Below, in pieces: positions 4,364 through 21,821 of a stretch of 33,683 nt of DNA; position 1 is the first letter of the stretch, and every line of letters begins with the position of its first letter. Source of the stretch: Sulfurimonas sp. GTDB lineage: Bacteria; Campylobacterota; Campylobacteria; Campylobacterales; Sulfurimonadaceae. Under the pieces are notes generated by a model that saw nothing but the letters and a program-made list of their open reading frames with translations, did no database searches and had not been told where the DNA came from. The position numbers and the translations under genes were made by a program. The stretch spans positions 1 to 33,683 of the forward strand of contig JANEIH010000010.1 in NCBI GenBank assembly GCA_024513425.1. Reading direction: 5' to 3'.

Positions 4364-4753
4364 ATGGATCATGTAGTGACTTCAAATCCGTATTTTGGGA
4401 TATTTGTACTATTTGTAATTACATTTGGTGCATTTACGGCTACGACTGTAATTGCTCGTTTGGCGAGTCGTGCGTTAGCTGCAAAAGATAGCGAAAAGAT
4501 TAAGCTTTCTGTTTATGAATGTGGACCGGAAATCACAAAACAACCAAATAGAGTGTCGCCACAGTTTTACCTGTTCGCACTGCTTTTTTTACTCTTTGAT
4601 GTTGAGATTGTATTTATGTTTCCATGGGCGGTTGACTTTAAAATTTTAGGTTGGTTTGGATTTGCTGAGATGATTATGTTTATCTTGTTGTTGGCAATCG
4701 GTTTCATATATGCATGGAGAAAAGGAGCGCTAGAATGGCACAACATAAAGTAA
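4364..4753 (+). CDS. nuoA: Complex I subunit A
   Basis: A 129-residue membrane subunit with three predicted helices, part of the junction between the peripheral and membrane arms of NADH:quinone oxidoreductase (complex I). The family motif YECGPE is followed by the conserved stretch around [14 protein letters not shown]. It opens the nuo operon; the AAGGTAGG ribosome binding site and a strong inverted repeat lie just upstream. Its last 19 bases overlap the preferred nuoB start, which implies translational coupling. Length and features are ordinary. Confidence 0.96.
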
Positions 4754-5244
4754 ATTATACACAAGACGGCGGGCTTCCGGTTGCGCTGACTTCTATTGAC
4801 AAGATTGTAAACTGGGGGCGTTCAAATTCACTTTGGGCATTAACATACGGTCTTGCTTGTTGTGGTATTGAGATGATGGCATCAGGTGCATCTCGTTTTG
4901 ACTTTGACCGTTACGGAACGATATTTCGTGCATCTCCTCGTCAGGCAGATGTTATGATTGTAGCGGGTACACTTACAAAAAAACATGCTGAGTTCATTAA
5001 GCGTCTGTATGATCAAATGACAGAACCTAGATGGGTTATCTCTATGGGTTCATGTGCAAATACCGGCGGAATGTTCAATACTTATGCAACCGTTCAGGGT
5101 GTCGATAGAATTATTCCAGTTGATTTGTATCTGCCTGGTTGTGCTCCTCGTCCTGAGACACTTCAGTATGGCGTAATGCTACTACAGAAAAAAATCCGTG
5201 CAAATAAAGCTGGAAATGCACAAAAAGCGAAAAGGTTAATGTAA
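4735..5244 (+). CDS. nuoB: Complex I subunit B (N2 cluster)
   Basis: A 169-residue peripheral-arm subunit that holds the terminal [4Fe-4S] cluster N2, which reduces quinone. Ligand cysteines are the adjacent pair C42-C43 in [11 protein letters not shown]107 in GSCANTGG and C136 in PGCAPRPE. The ORF track starts at 4714, but AAAGGAG at 4721-4727 is eight bases before ATG 4735, and [10 protein letters not shown] is the better N-terminus, so 4735 is chosen. It overlaps nuoA by 19 bases and its TAA shares one base with the nuoC ATG. All four N2 ligands are intact. Confidence 0.96.
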
Positions 5245-6050
5245 TGAGAGTGTATAAACCTAAAAACGATGTACAGGCAAAAGCTTACTATACGGATAGA
5301 TACTATGTAGCACCACAGGTTCCAAAACAGGAGATTGCTTCCGATGAAGTGTTTGCAGCTGACCTAGAGACTATCAAAACAAAATTTGAAGTAAAAGAGG
5401 CATACATTCAAGTAGAGCAGATGGTAATCTATATCAATCCACATGATATCTATGGTCTATTAGAGTTGATGCGTGATGAACTTGAATATACACAACTCTC
5501 AGAGATGAGCGCAATCGATTGGCTTGCAAAAGATAATACATTTGAGATCTTTTACCAAATGCTTTCAATGACAAAACGCAAGCGTATCCGTATAAAGTAT
5601 TTCATACAAAATGGTCAGGCAGTTGATTCTGTTGAGAAGCTTTTTCGTTCTGCAGATTGGTCAGAGCGTGAGATGTATGATATGTTTGGAATCGAAGCAA
5701 ATGGACATCCATTTATGAAAAGAATTCTTATGCCTTATGATTGGCAAGGACATCCACTTCTTAAAACATACCCGTTAGAAGGCGACGAGTTTGCTGCGTG
5801 GTATGAAGTAGATAAGATCTATGGAAAAGAAGCACGCGATATTATCGGACCTGAACTTCGTGATACGGCAAGGGTTGACAGGTATGACTCTAAGCGTTTT
5901 GCTCGCCTTGGTTTTGAAGTACCAAAAGGAACTGAGATCACAGAAGATATGGAGTCTACAGTTCAAGAGTATCAAGAAGATGGTGGAGTGTTTTTAATTA
6001 GAAAAGTAGATAAAGAGTCATCAAAAGTTATTGATGATCCTCAAAGATAG
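5244..6050 (+). CDS. nuoC: Complex I subunit C
   Basis: A 268-residue 30-kDa-type subunit of the complex I connecting module, without cofactor. The hallmark appears near residues 145-190: SEREMYDMFGI, HPFMKRILMPYDWQGHPL and KTYPLEGDE. It is separate from NuoD, unlike the NuoCD fusion of E. coli. The N-terminal portion of about 60 residues ([15 protein letters not shown] onwards) is longer than in many stand-alone NuoC proteins. Its ATG overlaps the nuoB stop by one base (TAATG), and nuoD follows after 12 bases. Confidence 0.95.
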   Translation: MRVYKPKNDVQAKAYYTDRYYVAPQVPKQEIASDEVFAADLETIKTKFEVKEAYIQVEQMVIYINPHDIYGLLELMRDELEYTQLSEMSAIDWLAKDNTFEIFYQMLSMTKRKRIRIKYFIQNGQAVDSVEKLFRSADWSEREMYDMFGIEANGHPFMKRILMPYDWQGHPLLKTYPLEGDEFAAWYEVDKIYGKEARDIIGPELRDTARVDRYDSKRFARLGFEVPKGTEITEDMESTVQEYQEDGGVFLIRKVDKESSKVIDDPQR

Positions 6051-6062
6051 GGTGGTAGAAAT

Positions 6063-7304
6063 ATGGCACAAGTAAAAAACAGATTAACACCGTTTTTTGA
6101 AAACATTACATTTGACAGAGAAGATAATGAACTCATTCTTAACTTCGGTCCGCAGCACCCTTCTGCTCATGGGCAGTTACGCCTTATGCTTCATTTACAA
6201 CAAGAGCAAATTGTAAAAGCACATCCAGATGTTGGATATCTTCACCGTGGTATGGAGAAGATGGCTGAGAATATGATCTATAATGAGTTTATGCCTACTA
6301 CTGACCGTATGGATTATATCGCTTCATCTTCAAACAACTATGGTTTTGCACTTGCAGTTGAGAAGCTCATCGGTCTTGAGGTACCGCGTCGTGCGAAAGT
6401 AATTCGTATGCTTCTTTTAGAGATTAATCGTTTGATGTCTCACCTTTTTTGGTTGGCAACAACTGCACTTGATATTGGTGCAATGACAGTATTTTTATTT
6501 GCTTTTCGTGAGAGAGAGTATTTAATGGATATTATTGAAGGGTACTGCGGGGCACGCTTAACACATGCCGCAATTCGTATCGGCGGTGTTCCTTTGGATA
6601 TTCAGGGCGACTTTTTACATCAGTTAAAAGTTTTTTTAAACAAACTTCCGCAAAACATCAAAGATTATGAGGATCTACTTGAGAGTAACCGTATCTGGAG
6701 AATGAGAATGGAAGAGGTCGGTGTGGTGCCGACTGAAATGGCACTCTCTTGGGGCTGTACAGGTCCAATGTTAAGAGCTTCCGGCGTTGCGTGGGATATC
6801 CGTAAAGAAGAACCATATGAGCTTTATGATGAAGTAGAGTTTAATGTTCCTTGGTCTGATAAGGGCGATAACTTTGCGCGTTACCGTATTTATATGGAAG
6901 AGATGAGAGAGTCTGCAAAGATTCTTTATCAATGCATGGAGATGTATGAGAAGTGCCAAAAAGATGGTCAAACTGAGCTTATGGCACATGCACCCAAATA
7001 TATCTCAGCACCAAAACTTGACATTATGACACAAAACTACTCTTTGATGCAGCATTTTGTTCTTGTAACACAAGGTATGAGACCACCGGTTGGCGAAGTG
7101 TATGTACCGACAGAGTCCCCAAAAGGTGAACTCGGTTTCTACATTAACTCTCAAGGTGGACCGTATCCATACAGACTCAAACTTCGTGCGCCGTCATTCT
7201 GGCATACAGGAATTTTAACCGACCTTTTACCAGGTCACTATATTCCGGATGTTGTATCTATTATTGGTACTACAAACATTGTATTTGGAGAGGTTGACAG
7301 ATAA
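6063..7304 (+). CDS. nuoD: Complex I subunit D (quinone-site, 49-kDa type)
   Basis: A 413-residue subunit, homologous to the large subunit of [NiFe] hydrogenases but without metal ligands, that forms the quinone pocket together with NuoB. Seen motifs are [11 protein letters not shown] with the quinone-site histidine, [23 protein letters not shown] and near the C-terminus [13 protein letters not shown] followed by RAPSFWH. Length is close to the family norm. The start follows GGTGG six to eight bases upstream. The stop overlaps the nuoE-like start by one base (TAATG). Confidence 0.96.
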
Positions 7305-7528
7305 TGAAACGCTATGATTTAAGAAATTTAAAAGATAATTTTGAGCCTCGTATGAAAGAGATTTTAGAAGAGAAACATAAGCCGACTGAGACTTTGATTT
7401 TTCTTTTTGAAATAGGCAACTTTACACCGATTCAGCGTTCAGCTGATTTGGTAAAAGAGTGTGGATATGAGTTATATAACTCACTGAAATTTAACGAAGT
7501 CGACTGGACTATCGTAGTTAAAAAATAG
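7304..7528 (+). CDS. nuoE: Miniature NuoE-position protein of Campylobacterota complex I
   Basis: A 74-residue soluble protein in the position of NuoE. Canonical NuoE is about 160 residues and binds a [2Fe-2S] cluster (N1a) with four cysteines; this protein has a single cysteine (KECGYEL) and cannot bind that cluster. The central LIFLFEIGNFTPI and the closing FNEVDWTIVVKK resemble, from memory, the small proteins that replace NuoE in Helicobacter pylori (HP1264) and Campylobacter jejuni (Cj1575c). It is translationally coupled to nuoD. It presumably supports the unusual NuoF-position protein that follows. The symbol reflects position, not proven homology. Confidence 0.8.
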   Translation: MKRYDLRNLKDNFEPRMKEILEEKHKPTETLIFLFEIGNFTPIQRSADLVKECGYELYNSLKFNEVDWTIVVKK

Positions 7529-7537
7529 GGATTTAAT

Positions 7538-9574
7538 GTGAGTAAAGTCTATTTTTCTACTTGGAAAGGCGAGTCTGTAAACAATATAGGTAAACCTCAA
7601 GAAGAGTGGGAAGAATCCGCTTATAATCTACCGGCACAATATGACGATCATCGTGACTCTAAAGCTTTTATTGGCTGGGATGGTGTCGCACTCTTTCATG
7701 AAGATGTAGATGTTATTCGTCTTGCTATGGAGTATGCTGCACAGTATCAAGAGTATAGTGAAGCATGTGGTAGATGTGCACCTGGGCGTTGGGGTGGTCG
7801 TATTTTATACGATGTACTTGATAAAATTGCTCGCGGTGAAGGTGAAGTAGCTGATTTGGATCACTTGAAAGAGATTGGTAAAAGTATGCAAATTACATCA
7901 AAGTGTGAGATCGGCAAAACTGTACCAAATCCTATTCTTGACTTAATGACACACTTTGAAGATACATTCTTAGAGTGTATCAATGAGAAAAAACAATCAA
8001 AACATTATGAAGAGAGTATTGGCTATATTGCAAAAATCACGGCTCCCTGTACAGATGCGTGCCCAAGTCATGTTGATATTCCCGCATATATTGAGGGTGT
8101 AAGAGATCTGCGTTTTGATGATTCTCTGGAAGCTACGCGTCAGACCATGCCGCTTGCACATGTTTGTGGTCGTGTCTGTCCGCACCCATGTGAAGATGCA
8201 TGTCGTAGAACAAATTTAGATGAGCCTATCTCTATTATGTCACTTAAGCGTCTCGGTGCTGACTGGGAGACGGATCATGGATTTGACTTTTTCCATCCTA
8301 TGGAGAAAAAACCATCAATTGATAAGAAAATCGCCGTTATCGGTGCAGGTCCCGCGGGACTTACAACGGCTTACTATACTGCTGTAGAGGGAATTTGTGT
8401 AGATGTTTATGAAGAGCTTCCTGTTCTTGGTGGCGAGGTAACGGTTGGTGTACCTGAGTACCGTATGCCTTGGGATAAGTACGAAAAAGATATCGAATGT
8501 GTAAAAGATATGGGTGTGAACTTTATCACAAACCGTAAAATTACAGCTGATGATATGCGTACATTTGAAAAAGAGTATGACGCTGTTATGGTAGCTACAG
8601 GTACTCGAATCTCTAAAAAAGTTCGTTGTGAAAATGAGCGTGAAGAGATTAAGGGTTACTGGGGTGCTATTGATTTTCTTGACTGGGTAAACCTCTATGA
8701 AAAGTTTGATATAAAAACACCAAAATCGATACAAGAGCAACAGATGCTAAGCCAAGACTTTGTTGACTTGACCGGTAAAATAGTTGTCTGTGTTGGTGGT
8801 GGATTTACTTCGATGGATGTTGTTCGTTGTGCGATTCGTGCCAATGCGAAAAAAGTCTATATGGTTTATCGTCGTGATGAGAATACAATCATTCGCAATA
8901 CAACCTATGAAGAGTATCACGAAGCTGTAGAAGAAGGTGTAGAATTTCTTTTCCATTCCGCAGTAAATAAGATTACAACAGATGAAAATGATATCTTGCG
9001 TGAGCTTCTAATCGATAAATTTGAACTTGTACCTGATCCTGATGGTGGGCGTCCGCAGTTGGTGAAAATTGAGGGTGAGTCATATGCGATTGAGGCGGAC
9101 TACTTAATTCCTGCTGTTTCTCAGTCGGCTGATTTAGACCTGCTTCCTGAGGAGTGGGAAATTGAGAAGACATCATGGGCTACTATCAAGACGAATGGAA
9201 AAGACTATATGACCTCACGCAAGGGTATCTTTGCTTCTGGTGACTGTGAATATGGTCCGATGACGATTGTAAATGCAGTTGGTCAGGCAAAGCGTGCGGC
9301 TTCTGTAATGTCTCGTTATGTTCAAACGGGTGAGATTACGCTTACTGATGAAGAGATTATGGAAGATCACTTGGTAAAACTGAAAGTCTATGACAAGAGA
9401 GAGAAAGTTACAGGTTGGCTTCCGGGGCTTCTGCGTGAGCACTCTGCGGTTTTAGCTGTTAATGAGCGTAAAGACAACAACAAAGAAGTAAATCTTGGCT
9501 TCACGCAAGAGCAGGCTTTGGCTGAAGCAGAGCGATGTATGCGTTGTTATTATATCGCTATGGTTCAATCCTAG
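7538..9574 (+). CDS. NuoF-position fusion: NuoF-type Fe-S domain plus GltD-like FAD/NAD(P)H oxidoreductase
   Basis: A 678-residue protein at the NuoF site. Residues about 55-150 resemble the C-terminal Fe-S (N3) domain of NuoF: ACGRCAPGRWGG, then GEGEVADLDHLKEIGK and SKCEIGK. The N3 pattern C-x2-C-x2-C...C is broken because the third ligand is Gly83 (C77, C80, G83, C123). From about 165 it is a GltD/DPD-type flavoprotein: an N-terminal Fe-S domain with C171, C175, C210, C214, C218 and C222, the FAD motif GAGPAG (269-274), a second dinucleotide motif VGGGFTSMD (about 419-427) with YRRDE, and a FAD-closing GIFASGDCEYGP. The FMN/NADH domain of true NuoF is absent. It starts with GTG at 7538 (the overlapping ATG at 7536 is followed directly by a stop). 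It probably delivers electrons to NuoG; the donor (NAD(P)H, ferredoxin or flavodoxin) is not shown by sequence. Confidence 0.88.
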   Translation: MSKVYFSTWKGESVNNIGKPQEEWEESAYNLPAQYDDHRDSKAFIGWDGVALFHEDVDVIRLAMEYAAQYQEYSEACGRCAPGRWGGRILYDVLDKIARGEGEVADLDHLKEIGKSMQITSKCEIGKTVPNPILDLMTHFEDTFLECINEKKQSKHYEESIGYIAKITAPCTDACPSHVDIPAYIEGVRDLRFDDSLEATRQTMPLAHVCGRVCPHPCEDACRRTNLDEPISIMSLKRLGADWETDHGFDFFHPMEKKPSIDKKIAVIGAGPAGLTTAYYTAVEGICVDVYEELPVLGGEVTVGVPEYRMPWDKYEKDIECVKDMGVNFITNRKITADDMRTFEKEYDAVMVATGTRISKKVRCENEREEIKGYWGAIDFLDWVNLYEKFDIKTPKSIQEQQMLSQDFVDLTGKIVVCVGGGFTSMDVVRCAIRANAKKVYMVYRRDENTIIRNTTYEEYHEAVEEGVEFLFHSAVNKITTDENDILRELLIDKFELVPDPDGGRPQLVKIEGESYAIEADYLIPAVSQSADLDLLPEEWEIEKTSWATIKTNGKDYMTSRKGIFASGDCEYGPMTIVNAVGQAKRAASVMSRYVQTGEITLTDEEIMEDHLVKLKVYDKREKVTGWLPGLLREHSAVLAVNERKDNNKEVNLGFTQEQALAEAERCMRCYYIAMVQS

Positions 9575-9583
9575 GAGTTGATG

Positions 9584-11827
9584 ATGGGTAATACAATTAA
9601 CTTTACAATAGATGGCAAACATGTAACAGCAAGCAAAGGTGAGACAATCCTTCAAGTTGCACGCAAGAACGGTCTCTATATTCCAACAATGTGTTATATT
9701 TCAAAGACTTCTCCATGTGCATCTTGTCGTATCTGTTCTGTAGAGGTTGAGGGTGTTGATGGATTTATTCTCTCATGCAATACGCCACCGACTGAAGGTA
9801 TCAATGTCGCAACAAACTCTTATGAGCTTGAGCGTGAGCGTCAAAACATTATGAAACTCTATGATGTAAATCACCCTTTAGAGTGTGGTGTATGTGACAA
9901 GTCAGGTGAGTGTGACCTACAAAATATGACATTGGAGTTTGGTCTGTCACAGCAGGAGTTCTCCGCAAAAGATCAACTTCGAATTGTAAAAGAGTGGGGA
10001 GTTATCAATTACGACCCAGCACTATGCATTATGTGTGAAAAGTGTGTGCATGTTTGTAATGAAGTAATCGGTGATGATGCAATTGAAGTAAAATTTGGTG
10101 GATATGGCTCAACTATCATTCCGAAAGATTCCGATACGCTTGATTGTACTTTTTGTGGTGAGTGTATCGCAGTTTGTCCGGTCGGCGCACTTGTAAGCAG
10201 TGATTTCAAATATAGTGCAAATGCATGGGAGCTATCGCGTATTCCATCGACATGTTCGCACTGCTCAGCCGGATGCCCACTGGAGTATGAGATACGCCAC
10301 TCCGGCATCAATGCCGATGATGCAATTTACAGAGTAAAAAATAACTTTGAATTTGCATCACTCTGCGGAGCCGGGCGTTTTGGATTTGATTTTGATGTAC
10401 AAGATAACAAAGATAAAAGAAGATTTACAGCAGCATTAAAAGTAGTTCAAAATGCAAGGGCCATCCGTTTTTCATCAATAATTACAAATGAAGAGGCACT
10501 GATTTTACAAAAAATGAAAGAGAAGCTTGGTTTGAAACTTTTTAATGAAGATGCAAGACTCTATGCTCACTTTATGAAAGCCTATGCATCTGTAAGTGGA
10601 AAACTTCACGCAACTGCAAACCTTGAAGCGATCAGAGAAGCTGATGCCATCGTTGTAATAGGGACAAGAGTCGCAACAGACAATCCTTGCGTTCGCTATG
10701 CTTTAACTACGGCAGCGCGTCATAATGGTGCAAAAATCGTCTATGCACACCCTATGGAAGATGTATTGATGAAAAATACTGTAACACAGTTTATGAAGTA
10801 TGAAGTAGGAACAGAAGAGGGTGTGATGGCTCTTCTTGCAAATGAACTTTTGAAAAATACAGATCTTGATGATGCAACAAAAGCCTTCTTTGACAATCTT
10901 GACCTAGGATATCTTGAAGCAGAAAGCAACATAGGCGATGATGAGCTCTTTTTTATGAGTAAGTTGTTTATGCGTGCTGAGAAAAAAGTACTTGTAGTTG
11001 GCGCTGATATGTTTGCTCACGCAAGGGTTCAAAACATTGCCAAGCTTGCAGCGATCATTGAAAAGCATACAGATTTCTCACTGCTTATTGTACCAAATGA
11101 GGTCAATACTATAGGTGTTTCACTTATCTGTGATTTAGATGTTGATGAAGATTTAAGAGGTGTTGTCGGGTATAATGCTCATGGAGAGTATATAATTGCA
11201 GCCGACGAAAATGCAGACTTCATTGTTCCGGCACTCAATCAACAAGAGGGAACTGTTGTTGGTATTGACAATCAGGTGTTGCCGTTAAATGCTGCACTTA
11301 GTTTTAATGGGTATGAGCTTAATGATATAGCATCTGCATTTTGTATTGAAGCTGAAAATACGATTGACTATACAAAAGAGCTACCGCAATCTGTAGGCTT
11401 TAAAGGAGTAGAGTTTGATTCACTAGAGAATTTCTTAGGGGAGTTTGGTGAAGATGAGCGTGGTTATCAGCTTGAGAGTGTAGAGTGTGTAATGGATGGT
11501 AAACTTGAAGAGGTAGCGGAACTCCCAGAGTATAATGGAACAGTTATCTATCAGGTAAATCCTGTATTGCAGTTCAATAGCTTTACAAACAAAACGAAGC
11601 AGTTAGAGCGTGATACAACTCTAAGAGGCTCCGCACAGTTTGCAGCAGTAGCGAAGATTAGTGATGGCGATGAGGTAGAGATTAGTTTAGGAGATACAAC
11701 ACAAAAAAGAGTCTTTAAACTAGATGATGAGTTAAAAGGAACAATTGCACTTAACCCTACATTTGATAGCGGTTACGATCATGGCAGTTATAGATTTCTT
11801 AAATCCAAAATAGTGAGAGTAGTGTAA
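9584..11827 (+). CDS. nuoG: Complex I subunit G, first copy
   Basis: A 748-residue iron-sulfur subunit carrying electrons along the complex I peripheral arm. Motifs in order: [2Fe-2S] ligands C37, C48, C51, C65; the His-Cys3 site HPLECGVCDKSGEC; CIMCEKCVHVC and CTFCGECIAVCPVGAL, together eight cysteines able to hold two [4Fe-4S] clusters; then an N7-type site CSHCSAGC with a later SLCGAGRF; and a molybdopterin-oxidoreductase-like domain without an obvious catalytic site. The ORF track starts at a TTG inside the ribosome binding region; AGGAG at 9573-9577 is six bases before ATG 9584, which is preferred over ATG 9581. It ends in a TAATG overlap with a second, different nuoG. Confidence 0.93.
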   Translation: MGNTINFTIDGKHVTASKGETILQVARKNGLYIPTMCYISKTSPCASCRICSVEVEGVDGFILSCNTPPTEGINVATNSYELERERQNIMKLYDVNHPLECGVCDKSGECDLQNMTLEFGLSQQEFSAKDQLRIVKEWGVINYDPALCIMCEKCVHVCNEVIGDDAIEVKFGGYGSTIIPKDSDTLDCTFCGECIAVCPVGALVSSDFKYSANAWELSRIPSTCSHCSAGCPLEYEIRHSGINADDAIYRVKNNFEFASLCGAGRFGFDFDVQDNKDKRRFTAALKVVQNARAIRFSSIITNEEALILQKMKEKLGLKLFNEDARLYAHFMKAYASVSGKLHATANLEAIREADAIVVIGTRVATDNPCVRYALTTAARHNGAKIVYAHPMEDVLMKNTVTQFMKYEVGTEEGVMALLANELLKNTDLDDATKAFFDNLDLGYLEAESNIGDDELFFMSKLFMRAEKKVLVVGADMFAHARVQNIAKLAAIIEKHTDFSLLIVPNEVNTIGVSLICDLDVDEDLRGVVGYNAHGEYIIAADENADFIVPALNQQEGTVVGIDNQVLPLNAALSFNGYELNDIASAFCIEAENTIDYTKELPQSVGFKGVEFDSLENFLGEFGEDERGYQLESVECVMDGKLEEVAELPEYNGTVIYQVNPVLQFNSFTNKTKQLERDTTLRGSAQFAAVAKISDGDEVEISLGDTTQKRVFKLDDELKGTIALNPTFDSGYDHGSYRFLKSKIVRVV

Positions 11828-14313
11828 TGAGTAAAATAGTCATAAACATTGATGGGAAAGAGATTGAGACACAAGAGGGCGAGTATCTTTTAAATGCTGC
11901 CCGTGCGAACGATATCTTCATTCCCGCAATATGTTATTTAACGCGTTGTAGTCCAACTCTTGCATGTCGTATATGTCTTGTCGAAGCAGATGGTAAACAG
12001 GTTTACGCCTGCAATGCCAAAGCAAAAGATGGAATGAGCATTACTACAAGCACAGAGAGTATTGAAAAAGAGCGTCGCGCTATTATGGAAGTTTACGATG
12101 TAAACCATCCACTACAGTGTGGTGTTTGTGACCAATCAGGAGAGTGTGAGCTTCAAAACTATACGCTTGAAATTGGAGTAGATTCACAAAGTTATGCGAT
12201 CAAAGATGTAGATAGAAGTAGTCATGACTGGGGACATCTTCACTACGATCCAGGTCTCTGTATCGTTTGTGAGCGTTGTGTAACTGCATGCAAAGATATG
12301 ATCGGTGATAATTCACTCAAGACTACTCCTCGTGGTGCTGATGCAATTGATGCCGAGTTTAAAGAGAGTATGCCAAAAGATGCCTATGCGATGTGGAATA
12401 AACTCAACAAATCAGTAATCGGTCTTACCAATGGAACAGATGTTCTTGACTGTACATCATGTGGTGAATGTGCTGCAGTTTGTCCAGTTGGCGCACTTGT
12501 AGATACGCATTTTCTATATAAATCAAATGCATGGGAGTTGAAGCAGATCCCAGCAACATGTGGACACTGTTCTGCAGGTTGTCAGATCTCTTATGATGTA
12601 AAACATACAAGTATTGAAAATCCCAAAGAGAAGATTTACCGTGTAATGAATGAGTGGAACTATGTTTCACTTTGTGGTGCGGGACGCTATGGATTTGATT
12701 ATCAAAATGCAGATGTTGTAAAAGATGAAGCAGCATTCAACACGGCACTTGAGGCATTTAAAAAAGCTACCGCGATCGCATTTACTTCTACTATTACAAA
12801 TGAGGAAGCACTTCTACTGCAGAAGATGAAGAAGAAGTTTGGATACAAACTTATCAACCCCGAAGCAAAAGCATTTCAGACTTTTATGAAAGATTACTCT
12901 GAGATTAGCGGTAGAAAACTTTATAGCTCTGACTTAGAGCGTGTGCATACGACTAACTTTATCGTATCAATCGGTTCAGCATTAAAAACTGATAATCCAA
13001 ATGCTCGTTATGCTCTTAATAACTCTCTTACGGTAAGCAAGGGCGCGGGAATCTACTTTCATCCGGTAGCCGATCCAATTATCGAAGGTCTCGGCAAAGG
13101 AGTTATGACCGTAACACATGCTCCACTGCAAGAAGAGATAGCACTCTATCTGTTGCTTGATCTCTTTGGTGATAAAGAACAGATGCCATCTGAAATCAGT
13201 GAATATTTAGCATCATTTCACTCTGAAAAAACAGTTACAGTAACTGAAGTAGTTAAAGAAAAAGTTGTTGAAGTCGTTAAAGAAGTAAAAGTGAATGAGG
13301 AGACGGGTGAAGAGGAGGAGATTGAAGTAGAAAAATCTAAAATGGTCTCTAAAAAAGTTGAAAAAGAGGTTGTTGTTGATGATAACAAACTTTTAGAGCT
13401 TTTAGGTGCAGATGATAAATTTATGGAGACTTTAGAGAAAAACCTTAAGAAAAAAGAGACTTTTGCTCTTATGGTCGGATCGGATCTTTATAGACATCCA
13501 AAATCAAAAAATCTTGCACGCTTAGTTGCCCTTGTTGAAAAATATACAAAATTTGAACTTGTAATAATCCCATCTCTTACAAATACACTTGGTGTAAGCC
13601 TGATTTGTGATCTTGATGATGAGAGAGACTCTTATACTATTGGTTATAATACAGACGGAGACTTTGTCCTCTCAGCTCTTGGTGATGGTGATTTGGATAT
13701 GCCGGCAATGAATCAGCAAGAGGGAACATTAACATCTGTTAATAAGCGTGTAAACCCTACAAATGCCGCAATCGGTTATAATGGTTATGAGTTTAATGAT
13801 ATTGCAAATGCACTTGGTTTGAAAGCTGATAATATTATTGACTATACAGCAGAACTTCCAACGATTGTCGGATTTAAGCGTGAGGAGTTTGATAACTTGC
13901 CAAATCATTATGAGAATGATGGCACCGAGATGCGTGGCTATGTGTTAGAAAATGTAGCAGTTGCGCCTTCTGGTGACGAAAGTGTAGATAAATTCAGCGA
14001 TGACAAGCTTGAAGGTAGTATAATCTACTTGGCTAATCCTGTGAGACAGTTTACCCCGTTTACACATAAAACGACTGAGCTTGATGAGGTAAGCGGTATC
14101 TATATGAGTGAAGAATTCTTGTCAAATTCTGATTTTAATGAGGGTGATACTGTAAAAATTGCAACTGATAATGGCGAATTAATCGCAAATGTAGTCAGTG
14201 ATAACAAAATAAAAGGTTCAACTGTAGTACTTCCTACTTTTGATAAAAATCTAAACTCAGAGGCTCTCTTTAGCGGATATCGCTTTAGTACAGCTTCGAT
14301 AGAAAAGGTGTAA
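11827..14313 (+). CDS. nuoG: Complex I subunit G, second copy
   Basis: An 828-residue paralogue of the preceding NuoG. It keeps every cofactor motif: [2Fe-2S] ligands C36, C47, C50, C62; HPLQCGVCDQSGEC; CIVCERCVTAC and CTSCGECAAVCPVGAL (eight cysteines); CGHCSAGC with SLCGAGRY. It differs by an extra segment between the two ferredoxin motifs (around KESMPKDAYAMWNKLNK) and by a Val/Lys/Glu-rich insert at about residues 466-521 (TVTEVVKEKVVEVVKEVKV and onward) likely to be helical or extended and solvent exposed. The C-terminal half shares blocks with copy one, such as TNEEALLLQKMK, NTLGVSLICDLD and NQQEGT. Both copies look functional. Whether both sit in one complex or in alternative forms cannot be told. 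Confidence 0.92.
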   Translation: MSKIVINIDGKEIETQEGEYLLNAARANDIFIPAICYLTRCSPTLACRICLVEADGKQVYACNAKAKDGMSITTSTESIEKERRAIMEVYDVNHPLQCGVCDQSGECELQNYTLEIGVDSQSYAIKDVDRSSHDWGHLHYDPGLCIVCERCVTACKDMIGDNSLKTTPRGADAIDAEFKESMPKDAYAMWNKLNKSVIGLTNGTDVLDCTSCGECAAVCPVGALVDTHFLYKSNAWELKQIPATCGHCSAGCQISYDVKHTSIENPKEKIYRVMNEWNYVSLCGAGRYGFDYQNADVVKDEAAFNTALEAFKKATAIAFTSTITNEEALLLQKMKKKFGYKLINPEAKAFQTFMKDYSEISGRKLYSSDLERVHTTNFIVSIGSALKTDNPNARYALNNSLTVSKGAGIYFHPVADPIIEGLGKGVMTVTHAPLQEEIALYLLLDLFGDKEQMPSEISEYLASFHSEKTVTVTEVVKEKVVEVVKEVKVNEETGEEEEIEVEKSKMVSKKVEKEVVVDDNKLLELLGADDKFMETLEKNLKKKETFALMVGSDLYRHPKSKNLARLVALVEKYTKFELVIIPSLTNTLGVSLICDLDDERDSYTIGYNTDGDFVLSALGDGDLDMPAMNQQEGTLTSVNKRVNPTNAAIGYNGYEFNDIANALGLKADNIIDYTAELPTIVGFKREEFDNLPNHYENDGTEMRGYVLENVAVAPSGDESVDKFSDDKLEGSIIYLANPVRQFTPFTHKTTELDEVSGIYMSEEFLSNSDFNEGDTVKIATDNGELIANVVSDNKIKGSTVVLPTFDKNLNSEALFSGYRFSTASIEKV

Positions 14314-14316
14314 TAT

Positions 14317-15306
14317 ATGGACAGTGCATATTTAATTGAAACGATAATCAAAGTCGTTGTAATTCTACTTATATTTTCAGCTTTAGCTGGTATTGGTACA
14401 TATTTTGAGCGTAAGATTCTTGCATTTATGCAACGCCGTTTAGGACCAATGAATGTTGGGCCGTACGGACTTTTACAAGTTGCAGCAGATGGTATCAAAC
14501 TCTTTACAAAAGAGGATATTATTCCTACGAATGTAGTTACTCCTATCTTTAAGATTGCACCTGTAATTACTGCGGCTACAGCGTTTATGGCTGCAGCTGC
14601 AATTCCTTTCTTGCCACCATTTGAGGTTTTTGGATATGAAGTACATCCAATCGTAGCTGATGTGAACATTGGTATTTTATATGTTTTAGGTATGATGGCG
14701 GTAGGGTTTTACGGTCCGCTTCTTGGCGGTATGGCATCAGCAAACAAATTCTCTTTACTTTCAGCCGCGCGTACTGCTGCAGTGTTTATCTCATATGAGG
14801 TTGTAACAGGACTCTCCCTGCTTGCTCCTATTATGATGGTAGGTTCATTATCACTTATTGATTTCAATGAGTATCAAGCCGGTGGTATCGGCGATTGGAT
14901 TGTATGGTCACAACCTGTAGCATTTATTCTTTTTTGGATCTCTGCTTTTGCTGAAACCGGTCGTACACCATTTCACCTGATTGCAAATGACCACGAGATT
15001 ATCGATGGTTTTGGCACTGAGTATTCTGGTATGAGATGGGGTCTTTTCTTCATTGGAGAGTATGCAAATATGTTCTTTATCTCATTTGTAATTCCTTTAA
15101 TCTTCTTAGGAGGTTATGGTGATGGTTCATTGTTTGGGGCGCTTGGTCTTCTTGGAAAAATGTCGTTTTTCTTCTTTTTCTTTTTATGGACAAGAGCTGC
15201 GTGGCCAGATGTAAGACCTGACCAGTTAATGTGGTTATGTTGGAAAATACTTATGCCAATAGCGGTGATTAATGTTGTAATCACTGGCTTTGTGATGATG
15301 TTTTAA
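14317..15306 (+). CDS. nuoH: Complex I subunit H
   Basis: A 329-residue membrane subunit with about eight to nine helices at the junction of the two arms, forming part of the quinone channel and the first proton path. Conserved loops are present: FERKILAFMQRRLGPMNVG, DGIKLFTKEDIIP, and FAETGRTPFHLIANDHEI followed by EYSGMRWGLFFIGEYANM. The acidic residues in these loops, important for coupling, are retained. The start ATG at 14317 follows AAAGGTG and lies three bases after the second nuoG. Confidence 0.96.
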   Translation: MDSAYLIETIIKVVVILLIFSALAGIGTYFERKILAFMQRRLGPMNVGPYGLLQVAADGIKLFTKEDIIPTNVVTPIFKIAPVITAATAFMAAAAIPFLPPFEVFGYEVHPIVADVNIGILYVLGMMAVGFYGPLLGGMASANKFSLLSAARTAAVFISYEVVTGLSLLAPIMMVGSLSLIDFNEYQAGGIGDWIVWSQPVAFILFWISAFAETGRTPFHLIANDHEIIDGFGTEYSGMRWGLFFIGEYANMFFISFVIPLIFLGGYGDGSLFGALGLLGKMSFFFFFFLWTRAAWPDVRPDQLMWLCWKILMPIAVINVVITGFVMMF

Positions 15307-15316
15307 GGGGATATGA

Positions 15317-15934
15317 ATGAGTTTAGAAGCATTTAACAATAGAAATGTAGCAGAAGGTGATTACTTTCTTGTTGCCATAGAGGAGTATCCGACAACAGGT
15401 TGGGATAAGTTTAAGCGTGTAGTAAAGAGAACTTTCAAGGGAGAGCTTTTTGTAGGTCTTTGGGTAGTGTTGCGTGAGATGATTCGTTTTGATATCCATA
15501 CTGTTCAATATCCTCAAGAGAAGATGCCAATTGGCCCAAGGTACCGTGCTGTGCATCAGATGAAAAGACTTTGGGAGTCTAATACTGAGCGATGTATCGG
15601 TTGCGGACTCTGTGAGAAGATCTGTATCTCTGATTGTATTAGAATGGATACTAAAATTGATGAAAACTCTCGCAAAGAGGTAACAGAGTACACAATCAAT
15701 CTTGGTCGCTGTATCTTCTGTGGTTATTGTGCAGAGGTTTGTCCCGAACTTGCAATTACTCACAGTGGAGAGTATGAGAATGCAAGTGAGCAGAGAGAGC
15801 ACTTCATTATCTATGAAGATATGTTAACACCGATTGATAAAATGAAAGCTGGAAAACAGCTTGAATTTGAAGGTTTTGGTGCCATCACACCACATGAAGA
15901 CGAGCGTGTTAAGAAGACACCTCTAGCATATTAA
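15317..15934 (+). CDS. nuoI: Complex I subunit I (two [4Fe-4S])
   Basis: A 205-residue ferredoxin-like subunit that passes electrons from NuoG to NuoB through clusters N6a and N6b. Two complete ligand sets are seen: CIGCGLCEKIC with a nearby C in ISDC, and CIFCGYCAEVCPEL. The N-terminal about 90 residues include amphipathic segments that lie against the membrane arm. AAGGGGAT precedes the ATG. The gene is between nuoH and nuoJ as expected. Confidence 0.96.
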   Translation: MSLEAFNNRNVAEGDYFLVAIEEYPTTGWDKFKRVVKRTFKGELFVGLWVVLREMIRFDIHTVQYPQEKMPIGPRYRAVHQMKRLWESNTERCIGCGLCEKICISDCIRMDTKIDENSRKEVTEYTINLGRCIFCGYCAEVCPELAITHSGEYENASEQREHFIIYEDMLTPIDKMKAGKQLEFEGFGAITPHEDERVKKTPLAY

Positions 15935-15946
15935 GGAGTATGAATT

Positions 15947-16513
15947 ATGTTTGAAGCAGTAGCGTTTTACTTGTTTGCATTTTTAACGATTGCGATGTTT
16001 TTTATAACAGTGACTACATCGCAAGCGTTATATGCATTAACCGCATTGGCAGCGGGAATGATTTTTATATCGGCATTTTTCTTTATCCTTGGTGCTGATT
16101 TTTTAGGTGTGATACAGATTATCGTCTATACAGGTGCCGTAATGGCTCTTTATGCCTTTGGTATGATGTTTTTTGATACGACACGCAAGGTTAAAGAGAA
16201 GAGGGGAAACAGATATATTATCGTTGGACTTTCAACTCTTACGGCAGTTTTGATTGTTGTGATTTTCGCAGCTCCTATGGTAAGCAAAAATATTGTAGCA
16301 CTTTATCCTGTGATTGAAGATGCCGGAAATATACAGCTTGTAGGCGTGATTCTTTTTACAAAATACCTTATTCCATTTGAGGTTGCGGCAATTATGCTAC
16401 TTGTGGCAATGGTTGCAGGAATTGTACTAGCCGGCAAGAAGATGGATATCTCTCTCACACTTATGAGTTCTGAAGAGATTAAAAAAGAAGAAAATAAAAA
16501 GGTGCTTTCATGA
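15947..16513 (+). CDS. nuoJ: Complex I subunit J
   Basis: A 188-residue membrane subunit with five predicted helices. The conserved third helix region reads FLGVIQIIVYTGAVMALYAFGMMF, with the pi-bulge-type segment typical of NuoJ/ND6. A charged cytoplasmic tail (KKEENKK) ends the protein. Start ATG follows AAGGAG. Its TGA overlaps the nuoK start (ATGA), so translation is probably coupled. Confidence 0.95.
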   Translation: MFEAVAFYLFAFLTIAMFFITVTTSQALYALTALAAGMIFISAFFFILGADFLGVIQIIVYTGAVMALYAFGMMFFDTTRKVKEKRGNRYIIVGLSTLTAVLIVVIFAAPMVSKNIVALYPVIEDAGNIQLVGVILFTKYLIPFEVAAIMLLVAMVAGIVLAGKKMDISLTLMSSEEIKKEENKKVLS

Positions 16514-16818
16514 TGGAAATAGGTTTAAATCATTATCTTGTTCTATCCACGATTCTCTTTGCAATAGGTCTCGCAGGTGTAATAAAGAGAAAAAACTTGC
16601 TTTTATTGTTTTTCGCAACCGAGATTTTACTAAACTCTGTAAATATCGCCTTTGCCGCTATTTCACACTATTATGGTGACTTAACCGGTCAAATGTTTGC
16701 ATTTTTCATAATTGCAATCGCTGCCTCAGAAGTTGCTGTAGGGCTTGGTCTATTAATTGTATGGTATAAGCGTCATGGAAATATCGACCTAGAAACCATG
16801 AAAAGTATGAGAGGATAA
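16510..16818 (+). CDS. nuoK: Complex I subunit K
   Basis: A 102-residue subunit with three helices, homologous to MrpC and ND4L. The conserved membrane glutamates are present in LLLLFFATEILLNSVNIAF and in the later IAIAASEVAVGLGLL, both needed for proton coupling in studied homologues. Two in-frame ATGs occur (16510 and 16513); the first overlaps the nuoJ stop by four bases and is used here, but the second is equally possible. Confidence 0.95.
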   Translation: MMEIGLNHYLVLSTILFAIGLAGVIKRKNLLLLFFATEILLNSVNIAFAAISHYYGDLTGQMFAFFIIAIAASEVAVGLGLLIVWYKRHGNIDLETMKSMRG

Positions 16819-16821
16819 GCC

Positions 16822-18750
16822 ATGGAAACATTATTATATATAGCACTTTTTGCACCACTTGTTAGTTCAATGTTTTCTGCGTTATTTACAACAACGCCAA
16901 AGAAAACATTTGTTGGTGTAATTGCTTCACTATTAATCTTTACTTCTTTTGTAAGCACTAGTTTGCTCTTGGCATCGATTGTGATTAATGGCAATGAATC
17001 TGTTCATGTTGAGATGATGACATGGATGGCGACCGGGAATTTATATATTCCTTTTGGGTTTATTGTTGATAAAGTATCAGTTACTATGATGATGGTCGTA
17101 ACACTTGTTTCTACCATTGTTCATATCTACTCTATCGGCTACATGGATCACGATAAGAGCTTTAATAGATTCTTTGCATGGTTGTCGGCATTTGTTTTTT
17201 CAATGATGGTTCTTGTTATGAGTGATAACTATGCCGGTCTTTTTATCGGCTGGGAAGGTGTTGGTCTTTGCTCTTGGGGGCTTATTGGATTCTGGTTTCA
17301 CAAAGAGAGCGCTACATGGGCAGCAAATGAGGCATTTATCATGAATCGTATCGCTGACCTTGGAATGTTGATCGGTATCTTTTTGGTATATTGGAATACA
17401 GGTACGCTTCAGTATGAAGGTGCATTTGAAGTATTTAAAACATTGGATCCTGCTACATTAACTTGGATCGGTATCTTCTTGTTTATCGGTGCGATGGGTA
17501 AATCGGCACAGTTTCCACTCCACACATGGCTTGCAGATGCAATGGAGGGCCCTACCCCAGTATCGGCCCTTATTCACGCAGCAACAATGGTAACAGCAGG
17601 TGTATATCTTGTTATTCGTTCAAATGAGCTTTATAGCTTGATCCCTAATGTTGGTCTATTTATCGCTTCGCTTGGTGCATTTGTTGCACTCTTTGCGGCA
17701 TCTATGGCACTTGTTAATCGTGATATGAAACGCATCATCGCATACTCTACGCTTTCACAGTTAGGATATATGTTCGCAGCAGCCGGTCTTGGTGCATACT
17801 GGGTGGCACTTTTCCACCTTGTGGCTCACGCATTCTTTAAAGCACTTTTATTTCTTGGTGCCGGTAATGTAATGCACGCTATGCATGATGAGCTTGATCC
17901 ATTTAAAATGGGTGGACTAAAGAAAGTGATGAAGTGGACTTGGATTATGATGACTATTGCCTCTTTGGCATTAGCAGGAATCTTTCCATTTGCAGGTTTT
18001 TTCTCAAAAGATACAATTTTAGAAGCAGCATTTGCAGAACATCATTTTGTAATTTATGGAGTACTTCTTTTTACCGCAGGTTTGACGGCATTTTATTCAT
18101 TTAGACTTGTAGCGCTCATCTTCCATGGTGAAGAGCGTTATAAAATCTTTGGCATTTCTCCACATGAAGCATATAGATTTATGCTTGTTGCGATGAGCCC
18201 GCTTTTAATTCTTGCAATGATTGCAGGTGTGCTTCAAGAGCCGTTCTTTCATATGATTGAAGAGATTTTGTCAGCACATGAGTACCATATCCATTCACAT
18301 ACTACACTTTGGATTATGTTAGTTGGAACACAAGTTTTCGTTGCTTTAGCGATTCTTTATGCATATAAAAAATATGCAAATGCATTTATTAAGGTACCAG
18401 ACGGTACAAGTGCAATTGAAAACTCATTTGTATATAAATTTTTATATAATCAGTACTATATTCCTTATTTCTATGAAGAGTATCTTGTAAAACCATATAG
18501 AGAGCTCTCTGATATATTCTGGAATAAAGTCGATATGAAAATTCTTGATGCAAGTGTTGATGGAATCGCAGGCATCATCTATGGTACCGGTGAAAAAACA
18601 AGAGCAATGCAGAGCGGTAACCTCTCTGTGATGTTAAGATGGATGGTAGTTGGTTTTGTGGTACTACTTTCATTAGCTGTAGTTTTTGGACTTACGGCAA
18701 GATATTCTGAAAATATCACGGTGATATTTTCAGGTTTAGGAGCTATGTAA
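16822..18750 (+). CDS. nuoL: Complex I subunit L (antiporter-like)
   Basis: A 642-residue subunit with about 16 helices, the distal proton-pumping unit of complex I and a relative of MrpA antiporters. Core motifs are retained: GWEGVGLCSWGLIGFW with the key glutamate, GKSAQFPLHTWLADAMEGPTP with lysine and aspartate/glutamate residues, SALIHAATMVTAGVYL, and AHAFFKALLFLGAGNVMHA. The C-terminal part (after about residue 500) contains the long amphipathic lateral helix typical of NuoL. The stop codon is immediately followed by the nuoM ATG with no spacer. Confidence 0.96.
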   Translation: METLLYIALFAPLVSSMFSALFTTTPKKTFVGVIASLLIFTSFVSTSLLLASIVINGNESVHVEMMTWMATGNLYIPFGFIVDKVSVTMMMVVTLVSTIVHIYSIGYMDHDKSFNRFFAWLSAFVFSMMVLVMSDNYAGLFIGWEGVGLCSWGLIGFWFHKESATWAANEAFIMNRIADLGMLIGIFLVYWNTGTLQYEGAFEVFKTLDPATLTWIGIFLFIGAMGKSAQFPLHTWLADAMEGPTPVSALIHAATMVTAGVYLVIRSNELYSLIPNVGLFIASLGAFVALFAASMALVNRDMKRIIAYSTLSQLGYMFAAAGLGAYWVALFHLVAHAFFKALLFLGAGNVMHAMHDELDPFKMGGLKKVMKWTWIMMTIASLALAGIFPFAGFFSKDTILEAAFAEHHFVIYGVLLFTAGLTAFYSFRLVALIFHGEERYKIFGISPHEAYRFMLVAMSPLLILAMIAGVLQEPFFHMIEEILSAHEYHIHSHTTLWIMLVGTQVFVALAILYAYKKYANAFIKVPDGTSAIENSFVYKFLYNQYYIPYFYEEYLVKPYRELSDIFWNKVDMKILDASVDGIAGIIYGTGEKTRAMQSGNLSVMLRWMVVGFVVLLSLAVVFGLTARYSENITVIFSGLGAM

Positions 18751-20313
18751 ATGTTAGATCATATTTTATCGATTTTAATTTTCTTTCCAGCAATAGCAGC
18801 TGTGTTTGGTTTTATGATTCAAAAAGATAGTATTCGTGCCTACGGTATTAGTGTGGCAACTATTGAGTTTGGATTGTCACTGTGGTTATGGTTTACATTT
18901 GATGGAAATGTTTCCGGAATGCAGTTTATGGAGAATCTTCCGTTAGTACCGTCTTTTGGTGTTAACTACATCTTGGGGGTAGATGGAATCTCTCTGTTTA
19001 TTATTGTACTTGCAGCATTCTTTACGATGATAGGTATAGCATCACTTACTGAGACCCCTAATGAAAAGAATATGATTATCACAATTTTGTTCTTACAGAT
19101 GACGATGGCAGGTGTATTTGCCGCATTAGATGCGATTGTGTTTTATGTGTTTTGGGAGCTCTCCCTTGTTCCAATGCTTTATATTATTGGTGCATGGGGT
19201 GGACCACTTCGTATATATGCGTCGATTAAGTTCTTCCTCTATACATTTGCAGGTTCACTTGTAATGCTTGTCGGTATGCTTTTTATGGCATACTTTTTCT
19301 ATCAAGCAACAGGCACATGGTCTTTTGCACTGCTTGATTGGTACAGACTGATTTTACCAGAAACATTGCAATTGTGGCTATTTGCAGCTTTTTTTATCGG
19401 TTTTGCTATCAAGGTTCCAATGTTTCCGTTCCATACATGGTTGCCATATGCGCATGGTCAAGCACCGACTATAGGTTCTGTGATACTTGCGGCGATTCTA
19501 CTTAAAATGGGTACATATGCATTTATCCGTTTTTCATTGCCACTATTTCCGGATGCTTCCGCAGCATTTATGGTTCCAATCGCTGTAATTACGATCATTA
19601 TGATTATCTATACTGCGATGATTGCGTACGCACAAAAAGATGTGAAGCAGGTTGTTGCTTATTCGTCAATCTCACATATGGGTGTTATCATTCTCGGTAC
19701 ATTCGCACTTAATGTTGAAGGCATTACAGGTTCAATCTTTTTAATGATTGCTCACGGTGTTGTATCTGGGGCTCTGTTTTTACTTGTAGGTGTTATCTAT
19801 GATAGACGCCATACAAAACTTATGAGTGAATTTGGTGGGCTTGCACATATTATGCCGAGATATGCAACTATCTTTGGTATCATGTTAATGGCTTCAGTCG
19901 GCATGCCGCTTACAATTAACTTTGTTGGTGAGTTCTTATCACTTTTAGGGTTCTATCAACAATCTCACATCTTAACACTATTGGCTGGAACCGCGATTAT
20001 TGTTGGTGCTATTTATATGTTGTCGGCATACAAAAAAATGTTTTTTGGCGATGTTACAAAAGAGGAGAATAAAAATCTTCCTGATATAAACAAAAGAGAG
20101 TTAGTAGCACTCATTCCTCTTTCTGTAATTGCGATCTGGCTAGGTATCTATCCTAAACCGATTCTGGAGCCTATTAACAACTCCGTTGAGGCAGTTGTGC
20201 GGTTAATGCATAATAAAGCACAGAGTGAGTTGGCAAAAGAGAGAATCCCCAATCTGGTAAAAGAGAGAGCTTCAGTTATCAAAAAAACTGTTATTGAAGA
20301 GGAGGTGCACTAA
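18751..20313 (+). CDS. nuoM: Complex I subunit M (antiporter-like)
   Basis: A 520-residue membrane subunit with about 14 helices, the middle antiporter-like proton channel. Conserved signatures include FYVFWELSLVPMLYIIG with the essential glutamate, KVPMFPFHTWLPYAHGQAPT with the channel lysine, and VVAYSSISHMG. A TTAGGAG ribosome binding site lies inside the end of nuoL. It ends with a TAATG overlap to nuoN, preceded by a strong GAGGAGGTG Shine-Dalgarno. Confidence 0.96.
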   Translation: MLDHILSILIFFPAIAAVFGFMIQKDSIRAYGISVATIEFGLSLWLWFTFDGNVSGMQFMENLPLVPSFGVNYILGVDGISLFIIVLAAFFTMIGIASLTETPNEKNMIITILFLQMTMAGVFAALDAIVFYVFWELSLVPMLYIIGAWGGPLRIYASIKFFLYTFAGSLVMLVGMLFMAYFFYQATGTWSFALLDWYRLILPETLQLWLFAAFFIGFAIKVPMFPFHTWLPYAHGQAPTIGSVILAAILLKMGTYAFIRFSLPLFPDASAAFMVPIAVITIIMIIYTAMIAYAQKDVKQVVAYSSISHMGVIILGTFALNVEGITGSIFLMIAHGVVSGALFLLVGVIYDRRHTKLMSEFGGLAHIMPRYATIFGIMLMASVGMPLTINFVGEFLSLLGFYQQSHILTLLAGTAIIVGAIYMLSAYKKMFFGDVTKEENKNLPDINKRELVALIPLSVIAIWLGIYPKPILEPINNSVEAVVRLMHNKAQSELAKERIPNLVKERASVIKKTVIEEEVH

Positions 20314-21821
20314 TGTTGTCGCCAATCAATGTTTCAATGGAGTCATTAAACTTAATAACTCTTGCACCAATGCTTATACCGGTAGTCGGTGCGCTGTTAA
20401 TTTTAATAATAGACATTATTAAAGTCGGTCTGCATAAATCATTATATGTAGTACTTAGCCTTCTGTTTTTGGCAATGGATTTTATTGCCGTAGTAGATTC
20501 TAGCGGTGTCTTTATAGCAAATGGCACAACATTTGGTCTTTTTGATGTAATGCTAATAGATGGACTTGCTATTCTTGCAGAGTTTATTATTGTCGGTGCA
20601 TCAATGCTGTTTATTCCACTAGCAATGACACATAAGCGTTTCCATGAGTTTTCATACCCTGAGTTCTTTGCACTCTTTTTGTTTATGATTGCAGGCTTTC
20701 AGTTTATGGTTGCTACTGATAACCTTATTTTAATATTTGTAGGATTAGAGACCTCCTCTTTGGCACTCTATACACTAATAGCTATGCATAACCGTGATAA
20801 ATCTTTTGAAGCAGCTGTGAAATACTTTACTATGGGTGCATTGGCAGCAGGTTTCTTTAGTTTTGGTGCAATGGTATTTTATATGCTTACCGGTTCTATT
20901 GAGATTAATAAAATTGCACTTGTTCTTGCTGCAAATGGATATGCTGATATGGGCTTTGTGCTAATTGGCGTGACATTTTTCTTAGCTGCATTTGGTTTTA
21001 AACTTTCACTTATTCCGTTCCATACATGGGCACCTGATGTTTACGAAGGAAGTTCGGCTTCTATGGCTGGGTATATGTCGATCGTTCCAAAAATCGCTGC
21101 TTTTGTTGTTGCTATGAGATTTTTTGAATTCTTAGTGCATAGTGGTAATGCATGGCTTGATATAGTGCTTTATATTGTTGTAGTTGTAACAATGACAGCT
21201 TCAAATATGTGGGCACTTGTTCAAACTGATGTGAAGCGTATGCTTGCATACTCTTCTATTTCTCACGCAGGTTTTGTAATGGCTGCGATCCTTATTGGAA
21301 CGACACAGGCAAATACTGCACTATTTTTGTATTGGATTTTGTTTAGTTTTACAAATCTTGGGTCATTCTCTATGCTTTGGATGTCAAGGCAAAAACATCT
21401 TCCAGATTATCAGAGTTCAGATCACTCATACAATAAGTTTGCAGGTATGATTAAAACTGCACCGATTGCATCTGTGATTGTAGGACTGTTTATGTTGAGC
21501 CTTGCGGGTTTACCGCCATTTGCACTTTTTTGGGGTAAACTCTATATGATATCTTCAGCAGTTGCAGGTGGCTATACGGTTCTCGCACTCATCATGGCAC
21601 TCAACTCTGCAATCGCAGGCTACTACTACTTAAAACTGATCATCTATATGTTTATGAAAGAGCCGCTTCAAGGGAGTGATAGTTGTGCATATGCTACAAA
21701 TATAACACTAGCATTGAAAACTATTGTCGGTATAGCAGCGATAGGAACTATATTTGCTTTTGTAGCGATAAATCCACTTTTAGAGTTCATTACGGCATTT
21801 GTACACAACAGCGGATATTAA
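20313..21821 (+). CDS. nuoN: Complex I subunit N (antiporter-like)
   Basis: A 502-residue membrane subunit with about 14 helices, the antiporter-like channel nearest the peripheral arm. Seen motifs: LIFVGLETSSLALYTLIAM with the functional glutamate, AFGFKLSLIPFHTWAPDVYEG with the channel lysine, and MLAYSSISHAGFV. It closes the nuo operon; pflA starts 33 bases downstream on the same strand without an evident terminator between them, so read-through into pflA is likely. Confidence 0.96.
   Translation: MLSPINVSMESLNLITLAPMLIPVVGALLILIIDIIKVGLHKSLYVVLSLLFLAMDFIAVVDSSGVFIANGTTFGLFDVMLIDGLAILAEFIIVGASMLFIPLAMTHKRFHEFSYPEFFALFLFMIAGFQFMVATDNLILIFVGLETSSLALYTLIAMHNRDKSFEAAVKYFTMGALAAGFFSFGAMVFYMLTGSIEINKIALVLAANGYADMGFVLIGVTFFLAAFGFKLSLIPFHTWAPDVYEGSSASMAGYMSIVPKIAAFVVAMRFFEFLVHSGNAWLDIVLYIVVVVTMTASNMWALVQTDVKRMLAYSSISHAGFVMAAILIGTTQANTALFLYWILFSFTNLGSFSMLWMSRQKHLPDYQSSDHSYNKFAGMIKTAPIASVIVGLFMLSLAGLPPFALFWGKLYMISSAVAGGYTVLALIMALNSAIAGYYYLKLIIYMFMKEPLQGSDSCAYATNITLALKTIVGIAAIGTIFAFVAINPLLEFITAFVHNSGY

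Follow-up and report, generated by a model that had tools for sequence, protein, structure and literature searches.

In Campylobacterota, two other genes stand in for nuoE and nuoF of complex I, and flavodoxin or ferredoxin is possibly used (PMC6682613, PMC4178425, PMC4585668). For Campylobacter jejuni, the account in PMC4178425 credits Weerakoon and Olson (2008) with the report that Cj1574c mediates flavodoxin-dependent input to complex I, which ties the nuoF position to complex I function. HP1264 has been reported to bind FMN (PMC6269979). GltD-type modules of Stn and Nfn bring electrons from NADPH to FAD and onward via two [4Fe-4S] clusters, which in Stn lead to NuoG-type clusters; StnC K170 is a ligand of the cluster adjoining the FAD (Cys3-Lys coordination), and the R239 position is the counterpart of NfnB R201 (PMC10482914). 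SfrAB of Geobacter is an NADPH oxidoreductase made up of GltD-like and NuoG-like subunits (PMC7483475).

We analyzed a 33,683-nt stretch of DNA (the window) from a Sulfurimonas genome of 1,349,585 bases in 91 contigs (99.96% complete; nearest named match S. indica NW8N, 97%). In this genome and in many related autotrophs, the NADH-binding head of complex I is replaced by a conserved fusion protein and a second NuoG. The nuo genes, all on the + strand, encode NuoA (4364..4753), NuoB (4714..5244), NuoC (5244..6050), NuoD (6063..7304), a 74-aa protein in the nuoE position that we call X (7304..7528), the fusion protein (7538..9574), NuoG1, an extra NuoG paralogue (9578..11827), NuoG2, which belongs to the family of the single Campylobacter/Helicobacter NuoG (11827..14313), NuoH (14317..15306), NuoI (15317..15934), NuoJ (15947..16513), NuoK (16510..16818), NuoL (16822..18750), NuoM (18751..20313), and NuoN (20313..21821). 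The membrane arm (H, A, J, K, L, M, N) and the Q-module (B, C, D, I) of complex I are thus present in one locus. X is a member of PF16514, the HP1264 family (profile 130.5 bits), and matches the solved HP1264 structure 2lxr (E 2.8e-21). The sequence-only reading had described the nuo operon as complete apart from the fusion gene at the place of nuoF; the position is correct, but the operon lacks nuoE and has two nuoG genes in tandem. Directly downstream of nuoN is a gene for a 792-aa TPR protein with DUF7494 (21855-24233).

The fusion protein (678 aa, GTG start) joins a NuoF/HydB-type Fe-S domain to a GltD/StnC-type FAD-NAD(P)H oxidoreductase. Pfam bears out this previously proposed order, with PF10589 (NADH_4Fe-4S, the NuoF-type 4Fe-4S domain) at residues 74-145 (7757..7972, +; 71.2 bits, cut-off 23.5), the two-cluster region Fer4_20 at residues 168-247 (8039..8278, +; 85.5), and Pyr_redox_2, comprising the FAD and NAD(P)H Rossmann domains, at residues 264-584 (8327..9289, +; 90.9). 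The NuoF flavin domain PF01512 was not detected in the protein by Pfam. Among PDB chains, the N-terminal 158 residues match NuoF/HydB proteins (best E = 1e-18) and align with the C-terminal Fe-S domain of HydB, NfnB, StnB, and NuoF, with scores of 55-71 bits for the HydB/StnB type and lower ones, about 31-47 bits, for complex I NuoF. The closest sequence relatives of the GltD half are the large subunits of Caldicellulosiruptor NfnABC (9bov), Sporomusa StnABC (8oh5), and Thermococcus NfnABC (9n5u). A Foldseek search returned the same subunits as nearest by fold, using an AlphaFold2 model with a pTM of 0.56 and pLDDT below 50 across the cluster region (residues 171-254). The GltD half contains FAD and dinucleotide Rossmann folds and the two-cluster Fer4_20 region with its Cys set, as in GltD, NfnB, and StnC. 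It is 32% identical to the genome's own GltD-like paralogue, and its matches fall far below the NCBIfam cut-offs for the glutamate synthase small subunit (TIGR01318, 240.7 bits versus 482.95) and for GltA (TIGR01316, 278.7 bits versus 471.75).

Searches of the whole genome returned no match to PF01512 and a single match to PF10589, which is the fusion gene. No NuoE match exceeded the family cut-off, the one partial match below it lying on another contig, and the HydBC-type FMN module of Stn/NfnABC (NuoF flavin domain plus NuoE) is not in the genome. With no separate canonical nuoEF above cut-off, the proposed replacement of NuoF stands. Within the class sample, the fusion occurs in 32 genomes (this one included) from nine families, and named genomes with fusion loci include Sulfurimonas, Sulfuricurvum, Nitratiruptor, Nitratifractor, Hydrogenimonas, and Candidatus Thiovulum. 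PF01512 proteins were found in 18 of 150 genomes, four of which also have the fusion. Some relatives have a separate NuoF/HydB-type protein in addition to the fusion. Genomes in the sample with a short standard NuoF (open frame of about 407-431 aa) lack the fusion.

X, the fusion, NuoG1, and NuoG2 constitute one unit across Campylobacterota. They are adjacent in 61 loci that extend over the whole set, and apparent exceptions to the order are mostly due to over-extended ORF starts. In one 10.5-kb locus (L091), NuoG1 was found without NuoG2 beside it. Campylobacterota-like nuo contigs also occur in MAGs labeled 'Acidimicrobiia' (L095) and 'Chloroflexota' (L100), most likely by misbinning rather than transfer. 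The fixed arrangement bears on whether the fusion and NuoG1 could be a separate soluble, SfrAB-like NADPH oxidoreductase merely co-transcribed with complex I. Geobacter SfrAB, with its GltD-like and NuoG-like subunits (PMC7483475), makes this conceivable. However, the insertion between nuoD-X and nuoG2-H is fixed across families, the Sulfurimonas genome has no other NuoF or acceptable NuoE, and the C. jejuni nuoF-position protein has been linked to complex I function (PMC4178425), so we regard a soluble enzyme as very unlikely and prefer a module acting on complex I.

The N3 site within PF10589 is modified. It reads C77-G-R-C80-A-P-G83 (7766..7786, +), the third Cys being replaced by an invariant Gly, and the fourth Cys lies between an invariant Lys and Glu (K122-C123-E124; 7901..7909, +). 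In the alignment, canonical E-S-C-G-K-C-x-P-C-R-E-G falls over E-A-C-G-R-C-A-P-G-R-W-G of the fusion, and the fourth Cys is also aligned. Instead of the four-Cys N3 site of NuoF, the protein therefore has three Cys and a Gly, as the sequence-only reading had described. Codon 83 is GGG, and codons 77, 80, and 123 are all TGT. Gly83 is present in all 108 aligned fusion homologues, as are C77, C80, and C123. The Gly is kept (CGRCTPGK) even in the most diverged fusion found, which comes from another family (locus L179, genome G092), whereas all NuoF/HydB-type proteins of the same class have C-G-x-C-x-P-C-R. Loss of the third ligand is thus old and fixed. The L179 family also contains Helicobacter-like relic genomes (see below), and the NuoG2 branch of L179 is very long.

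Cys at position 83 in homologues had been named earlier as a sign of error in this genome, and none of the 108 has it. Between the window gene and its closest named relative there are 90 synonymous and 17 non-synonymous codon differences, indicating purifying selection. These counts, the 108 Gly residues, and L179 all contradict chance, a pseudogene, or a sequencing error as the source of Gly83; we found nothing in favor of this explanation and rejected it as having virtually no probability. K122 and E124 are invariant among fusions, and canonical proteins have L/I and G/A/V at these positions. The three invariant Cys argue for a cluster that is still bound, and our guess is that K122 or E124 could be the replacement ligand. 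Cys3-Lys coordination has a precedent in StnC (K170; PMC10482914). An incomplete N3 site could, on the other hand, break the electron wire.

In the GltD half, C171, C175, C210, C214, C218, and C222 of the Fer4_20 region are invariant, and overall the eight Cys of the GltD module and the three of the N3 site show little or no variation. StnC K170 has its aligned counterpart in the invariant K237 (8246-8248), and StnC R239 in the invariant R309. An R-C667-M-R-C670 motif is found at the C-terminal end (9533..9547, +); RCxxC is C-terminal in the large subunit of StnC/NfnABC also, and N-terminal in stand-alone NfnB. Two invariant departures from the GltD consensus are E300 (8435-8437), in GGEV...GVPEYR near the FAD, and F423 (8804-8806), in the nucleotide motif GGGFTS.

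One alternative is electron bifurcation, in which the GltD FAD (or a flavin on X) would split or join electrons among NADP(H), ferredoxin, and the quinone-linked chain. The near relative NfnB bifurcates at the same FAD, R309 occupies the StnC R239/NfnB R201 position (PMC10482914), and HP1264, from the family of X, binds FMN (PMC6269979). Against this, StnC, which is architecturally closer and shares the Lys position of K237, has lost bifurcation (PMC10482914), and no HydBC-type FMN module is encoded in the genome. We therefore consider bifurcation improbable and return to simple NADP(H) chemistry at the FAD.

The nucleotide is likely NADPH rather than NADH, judging from the binding motifs. Y444-R445-R446 (YRR) is invariant in 48 of 48 aligned fusion homologues and aligns with the same motif of NADPH-binding relatives, yet the second nucleotide motif, GGGFTS, departs from the GxGxxA typical of NADP(H) binders, so that the preference is likely only. 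Alternatively, complex I could be ferredoxin- or flavodoxin-linked, with exchange at exposed GltD or NuoG1 clusters and a secondary role for the NAD(P)H site. Relic-type complexes that lack the module have been reported or proposed to use flavodoxin or ferredoxin (PMC4178425, PMC4585668, PMC6682613), NfnB has a ferredoxin-binding site (PMC7483475), and the OOR and POR of rTCA autotrophs require reduced ferredoxin (PMC4584964). But a complete FAD and dinucleotide domain with YRR kept in all 48 would be needless for pure ferredoxin entry, as the relic lineages illustrate. We view this alternative as unlikely, although it deserves consideration, and favor entry and exit of electrons at the NADP(H) site.

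NuoG1 has five full cluster ligand sets whose Cys/His residues are invariant in 65 of 65 sequences, which we take to be [2Fe-2S] N1b, His-ligated N5, two ferredoxin-like [4Fe-4S] sites, and N7. NuoG2 has the same five, but N7 is present in 70 of 87. The N1b, N4, and N5 ligands expected of NuoG are invariant in both proteins. In each, the five include an extra ferredoxin-like [4Fe-4S] site next to N4. Counting NuoI and NuoB as well, the Fe-S sites number approximately sixteen, some of which may be off-path. To our knowledge, two NuoG subunits in series have no structural precedent.

Overall, the fusion and NuoG1 probably form an exchangeable SfrAB/StnC-like NADP(H) module on complex I, docked via the second NuoG and probably operating mainly in reverse. 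The GltD-type domain would bind FAD and NADP(H), and its two [4Fe-4S] clusters would relay electrons, probably through the modified N3 site, into the NuoG1 cluster chain. From NuoG1 they may pass via NuoG2 to NuoI and NuoB and finally reach menaquinone, and the complete membrane arm (H, A, J, K, L, M, N) would couple this transfer to proton movement. A candidate docking piece on NuoG1 is the N-terminal NuoF-type domain. Its N3 cluster would be site-differentiated, with three Cys and a fourth ligand that might be K122, E124, exogenous, or missing altogether. The genome encodes ATP-citrate lyase, and thus likely an rTCA cycle. In rTCA autotrophs the main direction is likely reverse, with menaquinol and proton-motive force driving NADPH formation, which fits an organism whose menaquinone would receive electrons from H2 or sulfur compounds (genus metabolism in PMC4584964). 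Replacement of NuoF by a flavoprotein with its own Fe-S domain had been anticipated and agrees with the absence of NuoF from the genome, and the reverse use suggested at the same time is plausible given ATP-citrate lyase; the second NuoG and the HP1264-family X had been missed. A more elaborate scheme, in which proton-motive force and menaquinol yield NADPH and low-potential ferredoxin together at the GltD-type FAD of a bifurcating/confurcating complex I, along a wire with two NuoG and as many as some sixteen Fe-S sites, seems to us very unlikely.

The gene in the nuoF position of Campylobacter/Helicobacter/Sulfurospirillum-type loci (L123-L152, L182-L186) is of another kind. These loci encode X, a 230-339-aa protein, and NuoG. 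The L147 protein is 35% identical to NuoG1 over 150 residues (E 3e-27), matches NuoG2 weakly, and in sequence comparison has nothing above noise in common with the fusion. Profile comparison again favors NuoG1 (99.9% probability, E 4.8e-37) over NuoG2 (E 6.3e-14), and the match covers the C-terminal part of NuoG1. CxxC motifs are absent from 27 of 27 such proteins, and this type holds the nuoF position in all Campylobacter/Helicobacter-type loci examined. From these alignments, the Cj1574c/HP1265-type 'NuoF' looks like a relic of NuoG1, namely its C-terminal half. Hence, we rejected it as a counterpart of the fusion, contrary to the link implied by the sequence-only reading. X of one relic-type genome is identical to HP1264 over 74 of 74 residues, so the set includes Helicobacter pylori-like genomes; the labels Campylobacter and Sulfurospirillum for other relic groups are inferred from gene sizes and the two-complex-I pattern of PMC4585668. 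A quick NuoG2 tree requires three changes between the fusion and relic states, with starred branches forcing at least two, the exact number being unsure due to long branches. Since the relic is NuoG1 in truncated form, the likely direction is loss, both of the fusion and of the NuoG1 Fe-S half.

Sulfur- and hydrogen-oxidizing Campylobacterota are major primary producers at vents and redoxclines, and how they supply NADPH and reduced ferredoxin to the rTCA cycle is an open question, for which this locus offers a specific, conserved candidate machine. It also suggests that complex I can swap its input module for one of the GltD type and do without a NuoF that binds NADH. Searches of the open-access literature turned up no account of the fusion, the second NuoG, or the relic relation; prior notice in subscription papers is possible.

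Several known systems share parts of this architecture. GltD has the Fer4_20 and Pyr_redox_2 fold in common with the fusion, which differs in having RCxxC at the opposite end, a NuoF-type N-terminus, and a nuo operon setting. SfrAB of Geobacter sulfurreducens shares the GltD-like and NuoG-like subunits, and is set apart by a description that includes no NuoF-type domain (PMC7483475). Stn/NfnABC (8oh5, 9bov, 9n5u) are similar in their GltD-type NADPH/FAD module, which has RCxxC in its C-terminal part and connects to NuoG-type clusters, in the NuoF-type subunit within the complex, and in the Lys at the K170 position. Unlike the complex described here, they are soluble and without a membrane arm, their GltD part is joined to a NuoG-type domain rather than to a NuoF Fe-S domain, and Stn includes a NuoE-type subunit as well as a complete NuoF-type subunit that binds FMN. 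Canonical complex I (NuoA-N) has NuoA-D and G-N in the same order, but here its thioredoxin-fold NuoE and NuoF flavin domain are replaced by the fusion, and there are two NuoG. Finally, the epsilon-type complex I of Campylobacter/Helicobacter/Sulfurospirillum shares the X family (PF16514), the NuoG2 family, and the gene position, and has neither the fusion nor the NuoG1 Fe-S half. Its so-called NuoF (Cj1574c/HP1265 type) would be the remaining tail of a second NuoG, the Fe-S half of which disappeared together with the fusion, and the flavodoxin-using complex I of these pathogens would be a derived, stripped form of the autotroph enzyme, with only the NuoG1 tail left in the nuoF position.
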